Assembly (NCBI GenBank): GCA_023667845.1
Contig: JAMPIU010000018.1
Location: 1-55,738 of the forward strand
Source: Dehalobacter sp.
GTDB lineage: Bacteria > Bacillota > Desulfitobacteriia > Desulfitobacteriales > Syntrophobotulaceae
DNA length: 55,738 nucleotides
Reading direction: 5' to 3'
Positions 14,438 through 45,900 of the stretch are shown one piece after another; position 1 is the stretch's first letter; every line of letters begins with the position of its first letter. The notes under the pieces were generated by a model. That model saw only the letters and a list, made by a program, of their open reading frames with translations, was not told the DNA's origin and ran no database searches. Made by a program: the position numbers and the translations under genes.

Positions 14438-14525
14438 TCATCATTCAGATCAACAGTCATTCAAAACAAGCAGGTGAGAGGCTACGCGACAAACACGACA
14501 AGCACGTGCACGATCACACCATGTT

Positions 14526-14638
14526 TTGCTCTTTCCATCCAGACTTTAACTGTCGGCTTCGTAATTTCAACGAATCTGCCATAAGGCTCGCGGGCTGTAC
14601 CGCCGGTAAGGAATTACACCTATCCCCAGAGTAAAGAA
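14526..14638 (-). promoter_or_regulatory. FMN riboswitch (RFN element)
   Basis: On the minus strand the conserved RFN blocks appear in order: GGGGATAGGTGTAATTCC, TTACCGGCGGTA, AGCCCGCGAGC, GATTCG, TACGAAGCCGACAGT and AGTCTGGATGG. This is a full aptamer upstream of ribD and, with the terminator at 14400-14437, should switch off the operon at high FMN. The first block (GGATAGGTGTAATTCC) differs mildly from the commonest GGGCAGGGTGAAATTCC form. Confidence 0.97.
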
Positions 14639-17229: not shown

Positions 17230-17283
17230 TTAATGCTTCAGCAAGTTCAAAACGTATACGTTTTGAACTTGCTGAAGCATTAA
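17230..17283. repeat. 54-bp perfect palindrome
   Basis: Twenty-seven bases on each side of 17256/17257 are exact reverse complements with no spacer, centred on AACGTATACGTT. Perfect spacerless palindromes of this length can extrude as cruciforms and are usually unstable. It sits 14 bp upstream of the arsR -35 box. Confidence 0.85.
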
Positions 17284-24343: not shown

Positions 24344-24466
24344 ATTAGTATCTCGGGCTAGTCTGAGTGCCACAATACCGCTTTCGGCCGTTGCGTCCTC
24401 CGTGACGCAAAAGGCCGCGCTACGCACTCCATGCTCCGCTTGACGCTGGAACTGTGGCACGCAGAC
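24344..24466 (+). repeat. Dispersed palindromic element, copy B
   Basis: The core runs from 24361 to 24466 with 14-bp ends that match except one base (24361-24374 with 24453-24466). Its left flank, including TTAGTATCTCGGGC, is shared with copy D. The interior folds as CGGCC (24385-24389) with GGCCG (24413-24417), enclosing TTGCGTC (24391-24397) with GACGCAA (24404-24410) around the loop CTCCGT. It lies between the dnaD-like and dnaC-like genes. Confidence 0.85.
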
Positions 24467-24477
24467 TAATAACAGGC

Positions 24478-35592: not shown

Positions 35593-35682
35593 AAACACGT
35601 AAAAATAATCAGACAATTATTACCATGTACAGACACTTTAGCAGTGTTTCTCCATATCCTATAACAAAAAGGAGGTATGGAG

Positions 35683-36108
35683 ATGTACTTCGGAAGAAAA
35701 TCCGGCTATATGAATCAGCCGCCGGCTGTAAATATGATGAATCAGCCTGATATGACCGGTATGATGAATCAGCCTGAGATGACTGGTATGATGAACCAGC
35801 AGGATATGATGGGCATGATGAACCCGGAAATGATGTCTCAGTATGAACAGATGGGTCCTGAAGGCATGTATGCGGAGCAGACGCAGTCAGGGTATACCTG
35901 CGATCCATGCGGCTGTACACCTTATTATGAACACATGGAGGTTCATAAGCCGCTGCCGGAAGTTTATGTCGTTCAAAAAGGGGATACCGTTTACAAAATT
36001 GCGCAGAGATATGGACTGGATTGGCGTGAACTTGCTGGGTATAACCATCTAGGCAATCCCGATCTTATCTATCCCGGTGAAAGACTTTTTATTCCTCCCA
36101 GATATTAA
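35683..36108 (+). CDS. LysM protein with Met/Asn/Gln-rich repeats, spore-coat-like
   Basis: The 141-residue protein has an N-terminal low-complexity region with four near-identical blocks built on MMNQPxMTG (about 17-55), a Cys-containing segment (CDPCGCTPYY) and a C-terminal LysM domain (about 94-140, VVQKGDTVYKIAQRYGLDW) that binds peptidoglycan. Similar Met/Tyr/Cys-rich LysM proteins belong to the spore coat (SafA-like). GGAGGT at 35671-35676 is 6 nt from ATG 35683, so the ATG at 35677 is less likely. No secretion signal is present, as expected for a mother-cell coat protein. The spore role is inferred. Confidence 0.75.
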   Translation: MYFGRKSGYMNQPPAVNMMNQPDMTGMMNQPEMTGMMNQQDMMGMMNPEMMSQYEQMGPEGMYAEQTQSGYTCDPCGCTPYYEHMEVHKPLPEVYVVQKGDTVYKIAQRYGLDWRELAGYNHLGNPDLIYPGERLFIPPRY

Positions 36109-41234: not shown

Positions 41235-41238
41235 CATA

Positions 41239-41360
41239 GTCTGAGGGCCACAGTTCCGCGAAAAGCGAAGCTGAATGCGGAGTGCGGCTCTTTGCGCCAA
41301 GGATGGCACAAGAGCCGAAAAGCGGTATTGTGGACCTCAGACTTACCCGAGAAAATACGT
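41239..41360 (-). repeat. Dispersed palindromic element, copy C
   Basis: The core spans 41239-41342. On the minus strand it reads as copy B with changes, including the flank TCTCGGGTAAGTCTGAG. The interior stem is CGGCTC...GAGCCG enclosing TTGTGCC (complement of 41305-41311) with GGCGCAA (complement of 41292-41298) around the loop ATCCTT, homologous to the stem of copy B with compensatory changes. It lies between M42 paralogues 2 and 3. Confidence 0.85.
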
Positions 41361-45684: not shown

Positions 45685-45717
45685 TTAATATCTTGGGTAA
45701 ATAACATTTAGTCTTTT
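45685..45717. other. Spacer and left flank of copy D
   Basis: AATATCTTG and AATAACATT in this stretch also occur in the left flank of copy B, so homology begins before the core of the repeat. Confidence 0.5.
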
Positions 45718-45900
45718 AGTATCTCGGGCCTGTCTGCATGCCACAATTCCGCTTCCAGCCGTTGTGCCCTCCTTGACACGTCGCTCCTTGCCATCCTTGG
45801 CATCGCGACATTAGGCCATCCGTGGCCGTCAAAAGGCTGCGCTACGCGTCCTGCTTCGCTTGACGCTGGAATTGTGGCACGCAGACAAAATCTGGAGTAA
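45718..45900 (+). repeat. Dispersed palindromic element, copy D (longest)
   Basis: The core is 45732-45886, with the left flank TTAGTATCTCGGGC shared with copy B and the right flank TCTGGAGTAA shared with copy A. The interior can form CAGCC (45756-45760) with GGCTG (45835-45839), then TTGAC (45773-45777) with GTCAA (45828-45832). These enclose two hairpins: GTCGC/GCGAC over TGCCA-TCCT-TGGCA, and GGCCA-TCCG-TGGCC (45814-45827). No open frame is present. It lies between gap and pyk. Confidence 0.88.

Follow-up and report, generated by a model that had tools for sequence, protein, structure and literature searches.

A modular intergenic repeat of Dehalobacter with a probably mobile, structure-conserved two-hairpin module

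The gap between the glyceraldehyde-3-phosphate dehydrogenase (gapA) and pyruvate kinase (pyk) genes of a Dehalobacter genome (G000; genes identified by Pfam) holds a 174-nt non-coding, intergenic sequence, copy D, which is one member of a dispersed repeat family. Three further copies, A, B and C, lie in the same window, the whole 55,738-nt stretch of DNA analysed here, and lack part of the interior of copy D. The locus raises the question of where this additional interior came from; the initial annotation saw in copy D a form expanded by internal duplication of a hairpin. We find that copy D owes its additional interior to a module that was inserted, or has yet to be lost, and not to a hairpin duplicated in place, and we regard it as fairly probable that this copy represents, at full length, a BOX-like modular repeat with a mobile, structure-conserved inner module of two hairpins.

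Fold and conserved stems of copy D

Copy D, its stems and the other copies in the window are located as follows.

45716..45889, minus strand (R strand = minus strand): copy D, full-length composite repeat (full-length matches L002 and L003, 88-89%; fold z −6.6)
45731..45750, no strand: left arm of the outer stem (inverted repeat I12, 95% complementary to 45868-45887)
45868..45887, no strand: right arm of the outer stem (I12, pairs with 45731-45750)
45756..45760, no strand: inner enclosing stem CAGCC, pairs with GGCTG at 45835-45839
45835..45839, no strand: inner enclosing stem GGCTG, pairs with CAGCC at 45756-45760
45764..45779, minus strand: hairpin C (R strand GTGTC-AAGGAG-GGCAC), with two-sided changes at three pairs, kept in the module-free orthologue L290
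7215..7294, plus strand (R strand = plus): copy A, a shortened composite without module (fold)
41238..41344, plus strand (R strand = plus): copy B, a composite without module (fold)
24345..24469, minus strand: copy C, a composite without module and with one central hairpin (direct repeats D2 and D5; fold)

The fold of copy D is far more stable than that of shuffled sequence. Its plus strand reaches −79.5 kcal/mol, against −53.1 ± 4.0 for shuffles (z −6.54), its minus strand −84.8 (z −6.64), and none of 200 dinucleotide shuffles on either strand matched these energies, so that the multi-branched structure first proposed passes the thermodynamic check with z about −6.5 on both strands. Two hairpins with near-identical loops had been described inside the stems CAGCC/GGCTG and TTGAC/GTCAA, and both the sequence and the minimum-energy fold contain all of these elements: on the plus strand the enclosed hairpins are TGCCA-TCCT-TGGCA (45789-45802), itself nested in the stem GTCGC/GCGAC, and GGCCA-TCCG-TGGCC (45814-45827), and TTGAC (45773-45777) pairs with GTCAA (45828-45832).

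Only one of the two enclosing stems is conserved. Among 39 distinct composite copies, 96.4% of the CAGCC/GGCTG cells are paired and two pairs show two-sided changes, whereas the TTGAC/GTCAA helix has zero two-sided changes and an A-U pair that is broken in 21 of the 39. The bases of the latter are shared, as an alternative pairing, with hairpin C, which covaries there (two-sided changes at three pairs, in 12, 13 and 1 cells), yet only 76.5% of its cells pair. Hairpin C is the sole hairpin remaining where the module is absent, and folding bears out the earlier statement that copies B and C carry a single central hairpin. When 80-nt extracts were folded alone, copy C was more stable than shuffles (z −3.7) but copies A and B were not (z −1.4 and −0.14), these extracts cutting off parts of the element.

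A BLAST search of copy D against its own genome gave 61 matches. Two of them, L002 and L003, align end to end at 88-89% identity, and many others span only the central part. Beyond the stem the composites lose their similarity and reach to different points, so that the family has no constant outer ends. Between gapA and pyk in G001 (L291) and G004 (L292), the outer stem is wholly different in sequence from that in G000 and G002 and is again self-complementary, a subfamily replacement with gene conversion as its possible route. An Rfam search of the whole window at the gathering cut-off gave no hit on the repeat, nor did a search of L002, L003, L019 and L023 at E<=1, and within the open-access literature searched we found no prior description of the repeat or the module.

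The window contains three further features of note: an unusual perfect 54-nt palindrome of two 27-nt arms without spacer (17230-17283), possibly an assembly or terminator feature; an FMN riboswitch on the minus strand (14523-14637, 106.9 bits); and three tandem 27-nt repeats (35733-35813) inside the open reading frame 35677-36108, encoding a repeated 9-residue unit.

The two-hairpin module and its sites

The part of copy D missing from its shorter relatives is a module of 51-53 nt with the following parts.

45779..45831, minus strand: two-hairpin module (hairpins A and B), behaving as mobile (match to covariance model R1, 83.6 bits; 51 nt missing in the G002 orthologue)
45814..45827, minus strand: hairpin A, R strand GGCC-ACGGAT-GGCC, with an ANGGAX hexaloop (loop conservation, 165 distinct rows)
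45789..45802, minus strand: tip of hairpin B, R strand TGCC-AAGGAT-GGCA (loop conservation, 169 distinct rows)
45780..45809, minus strand: hairpin B including outer stem GTCGC/GCGAC (paired in 100% of cells) and internal loop GA/AGGA

On the R strand the order is hairpin A, a TAAT linker and hairpin B, the latter consisting of outer stem, internal loop and a tip with the same loop. By the evidence of the alignments, compensatory change maintains this predicted structure. The outer stem of hairpin B, paired in 100% of cells, has two-sided changes at two pairs; the alignment behind R1 (A1, 23 of 30 hits and 15 pairs, with weak, truncated and repeated hits left out) has them at 4 pairs; and their number in the composite alignment exceeds that in all 500 shuffles. 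The composite alignment A4 is a hand-picked set of 40 of the 61 listed composites, from which long, odd-length and near-duplicate ones were left out. If the loop-closing pairs are left aside, the R strand has more G-U than A-C (48 vs 22, p 0.0025, an optimistic value since the rows are related), an excess that fits folding of the R strand; with the loop-closing pairs included the counts are 51 vs 47.

R1 finds 42 places in G000 at E<0.01 and 54 at E<=1. Of 61 genomes searched among relatives, 40 have a match; in the class the figure is 49 of 82, confined to two families of one order, and in a sample of 398 genomes across the phylum it is 20, 11 of these outside the order. One genus includes both a module-rich genome (G029) and a module-free one (G025). 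Exact pattern matches occur on contigs labelled Syntrophomonas, Gracilibacter and Peptococcaceae; the genus numbered g12 in our set is presumably Desulfosporosinus. No module match was found in viral contigs (by pattern), phages or plasmids, and scans of viral sequences with the GapA protein and with the transposase part of L365 (see below) found no relative.

The fetched loci contain 204 module matches, L080 and L082 having been dropped beforehand as duplicates of L064 and L063. Nearly all are intergenic, 4 of the 204 falling within predicted genes. Genes were called and sites sorted by rules of our own making, and the text rules assign 61 matches to composite I/II, 24 to composite III, 9 to half composites, 80 to solitary modules and 30 to distant genomes. 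Counting independent sites whose two neighbours share one direction, the R strand runs with rather than against them at 16 vs 16 composite I/II, 4 vs 10 composite III, 1 vs 4 half and 6 vs 9 distant-genome sites, and at 25 vs 11 solitary sites (p 0.029). The solitary bias may reflect target choice rather than a function of sense RNA, since many solitary modules adjoin T- or pyrimidine-rich tracts, in either orientation. Many come straight after terminator T-runs or start at a stop codon; L023 lies beside a cobalamin riboswitch, and L057 after what we take to be a T-box-like leader. Some reverse-oriented modules adjoin Shine-Dalgarno tracts, so that the R strand again has pyrimidines upstream, and pyrimidine content at −5 to −1 of solitary sites is 55-75%, moderately raised only.

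Several further arrangements were observed. Three equal-scoring modules (L201-L203) form one array within ~720 nt of the Desulfosporosinus-like genome G054 (C9:59629-60351), among other hairpin types. At several loci of G003 (L110-L119) two inverted modules lie ~30 nt apart in a repeated dimer form (for example 1417-1471 minus and 1501-1553 plus). By eye, the list of matches in G001 reveals no replication-strand bias.

At orthologous sites the module is the unit of presence and absence. Five such sites have it in one Dehalobacter and lack it, as a block of 51-52 nt, in another. Between gapA and pyk, G002 has the composite of copy D minus exactly 51 nt, G001 and G004 have a module-free composite with the different outer stem, and G003, G015 and G010 have no element; at the four other sites the difference is 51 or 52 nt. 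The L174 module comes after the terminator tail TTTTG, and the sequence of G001 and G004 continues directly without it. Target duplication at the module junctions is at most about 1 nt. In one genome (G211) a module lies inside a decayed IS91-type transposase gene (L365). Downstream of this insertion the gene matches PF14319, starting at profile position 34, and in two homologs the corresponding motifs are separated by two residues, which puts the net insert at 52 nt. The gene has another stop upstream. The block-wise differences at five sites, the 80 solitary modules among 204 and the interruption at L365 together argue for mobility of the module.

Other processes also leave their mark. The L056 module has flanking direct repeats, and L051 in G001 is a deletion that left module sequence behind, so slippage and deletion act too. 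L002 has, in two genomes, an internal deletion that does not coincide with the module. L012 shows a joint change of hairpin C and module, for which gene conversion alone could account. The whole composite at L008 is present in G000 and absent in three relatives; here and at L026, where presence or absence likewise concerns the whole, the alignments are too ambiguous for mapping ends.

These observations do not agree with internal duplication as the origin of copy D. L002 and L003 match it over its whole length, the extra unit is the 51-nt module that also stands alone elsewhere and comes and goes as a block, and the junction of module-free composites, TTTTG-TGTC on the R strand, is not what slippage between neighbouring hairpins would leave. 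A wider form of the idea, in which slippage or recombination merely changes copy number in a tandem A-B-A array and the module has no mobility of its own, draws on the A-B-A and A-B-A-B arrays that exist (L023, L028, L084, L104, L193), on the direct repeats at L056 and on the likeness of hairpins A, B and C. We think it very unlikely: slippage between A and C should have produced TTTTGACGTGTC and not the junction found, and isolated modules in unrelated sequence and in a transposase gene count against it family-wide. Equally improbable is a classical decaying MITE, its terminal inverted repeats derived from a DNA transposon and its hairpin differences due to degradation only. Copy D does have long terminal inverted repeats (20-nt arms, 95% complementary), the copies are dispersed and intergenic, and the L008 composite is absent as a whole from three relatives; the family, however, lacks constant outer ends, its outer stem between gapA and pyk differs entirely in sequence between species and stays complementary, its interior hairpins bear compensatory changes, and an unsystematic look revealed no parent transposon.

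Y1 systems typically show no target duplication, hairpins and a T-rich target. The module shares all three traits, and REP/REPIN-like movement by a RAYT or IS200/IS605 (Y1) transposase would account for them, but PF01797 has matches in only three of seven module-bearing genomes (G001, G003 and G015) and none in G000, G002, G004 and G010. We therefore rejected a Y1 transposase as the general mobiliser; for current movement in the latter four genomes this reading, to which we give hardly any credence, is largely refuted, though an enzyme since lost may have moved the module in the past. We found no enzyme that would mobilise the module.

In the reading that we prefer, the outer composite, with its long imperfect stem and central hairpin C, would be the dispersed repeat, and the 51-52 nt module at its centre a non-autonomous unit whose moving form is a single strand, RNA or ssDNA, that is folded and always of one polarity. 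A putative enzyme would place it 3′ of T- or pyrimidine-rich tracts, namely terminator tails, the TTTT inside composites and the Shine-Dalgarno complement, duplicating ~1 nt of the target at most. Gene conversion between composites may then swap module-bearing and module-free versions, and the nearly invariant A-N-GGA loops may be what a mobilising or binding protein reads. The suggestion that length changes in hairpin units recall modular RNA elements more than decaying transposons holds insofar as length differs by whole hairpin units and structure is kept by compensatory changes, but its contrast is too sharp, as the unit behaves as a mobile element with a conserved structure.

The module loops and CsrA

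The loop letters A, G, G and A are kept in 161-165 of 165 distinct rows in hairpin A and in 165-169 of 169 in hairpin B; the N position is free and X drifts. The high-affinity site of Csr/Rsm proteins (CsrA/RsmE), as given in the available part of PMC4005645, is an A(N)GGAX hexaloop directly on a C-G-closed stem, and the SELEX consensus of CsrA in the part consulted of PMC7652899 is RUACARGGAUGU; the module loops match the former and come near the latter. Four ANGGA stand on the R strand of copy D and none on its complement; shuffles average 0.96, and 12 of 2000 reach four. A CsrA match is found in 50 of 61 genomes searched, G000 included, and each of these 50 also has a FliW match. Intergenic hairpins in a 400-kb sample of G001 show an excess of NGGA tetraloops (17 of 143); those of G054 and the control G076 show none. 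Hairpins before a TA[AG]TG[CT] linker have GGA loops in 17 of 40 cases, against 0-4 of 11-37 for six control linkers, a scan that samples the same repeat family and so adds little.

CsrA recognition of the module loops is a sharp, unproven hypothesis. A reading that we consider rather unlikely is that the R strand of copy D and of all modules is transcribed and that its ANGGAX hexaloops bind CsrA, either titrating it from dozens of scattered loci, otherwise in the manner of CsrB or RsmZ, or acting on the mRNA of which they form part. The conserved loops and their fit to the binding consensus, the four ANGGA on one strand of copy D, the frequency of CsrA among the genomes and the excess of solitary modules codirectional with both neighbours would agree with it. 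Against it, copy D is antisense to both neighbouring genes, the other orientation classes are balanced or reversed, the solitary bias may stem from target choice, and random DNA of G054 has no excess of NGGA loops. Modules and CsrA show no significant co-occurrence (p 0.49; 0.07 when restricted to the more complete genomes), and G051, 94% complete, has 8 modules and no CsrA match. A general sense-strand role is not supported by the orientation data or by modules in genomes without a CsrA match.

A bolder version, which we hold to be quite unlikely, would make the 51-nt mobile RNA-like unit with its paired candidate high-affinity sites a transposable CsrA decoy that conceivably reached tens of copies in the genomes of Dehalobacter and of Desulfosporosinus-like and Syntrophomonas-like bacteria. 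Two forms of it, no less speculative, may be imagined: CsrA might protect the RNA of the unit, or the modules might, once domesticated, act as a distributed CsrA sponge in Gram-positives with FliW. In one module-free locus (L326 in G004), in a gap that we take to be rplS-rbgA-like, the Shine-Dalgarno sequence of the downstream gene lies within a GTCC-ATGGA-GGAC hairpin with a CsrA-type loop. According to the accessible portion of PMC4682653, FliW and BarA-UvrY are anti-correlated, and at its writing B. subtilis was the only Gram-positive whose CsrA had been studied.

Comparison with known repeats and RNAs

Two properties make the module of wider interest: orthologous sites of different species show a 51-52 nt unit present or absent as a block, and its loops suggest a single, well-defined protein that can be tested at little cost. 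Were CsrA to bind, dechlorinating bacteria would offer a link between a mobile element and global post-transcriptional regulation, and the idea of a Gram-positive RNA antagonist of CsrA could be put to the test; were it not to bind, a clean BOX-like family would serve for asking how very small non-autonomous hairpins move.

For bcr1 of the Bacillus cereus group, neither an independently mobile inner module nor a conserved motif in the loops is known to us. As the consulted part of PMC2267715 describes it, bcr1 resembles the Dehalobacter repeat in being a foldable intergenic repeat of ~150-170 nt in a Gram-positive. The CsrA-sequestering sRNAs CsrB, CsrC and RsmZ likewise carry A(N)GGAX loops on several hairpins with C-G-closed stems (available parts of PMC7652899 and PMC4005645), and Dehalobacter has both such loops and, in the host genome, CsrA. 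Those sRNAs, however, are single dedicated genes of Gammaproteobacteria, whereas the Dehalobacter repeat has tens of copies in both orientations and no Rfam match. REP/BIME and the GTAG and CGTC families, in the sections consulted of PMC3733652, are likewise short intergenic palindromes that form mosaics, in many cases downstream of a gene; the module differs in its two hairpins, internal loop and fixed linker and in the lack of a resident Y1 transposase in 4 of 7 genomes. A term search of the accessible text of that source gave no mention of Firmicutes, Clostridia or Desulfito-/Dehalo-bacteria.

The closest known kind, by analogy of description, is the BOX element of Streptococcus pneumoniae. 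In the part of PMC3049150 consulted, BOX elements have end modules around an interior boxB that is absent or several times present, and are intergenic, structured, dispersed and thought to be mobile, no enzyme having been shown. The Dehalobacter repeat is likewise intergenic, structured and dispersed, with an optional interior module, the likeness being one of description and not of sequence. The hosts differ, and the Dehalobacter module is also found on its own and within an interrupted gene and has retained its ANGGA loop, whereas boxB, in the same portion of that source, is described only within BOX elements. Several modules within one composite were not seen among our loci; as in BOX, the interior module may be absent (copies A-C and L290) or single (copy D), and it stands in tandem at solitary sites.
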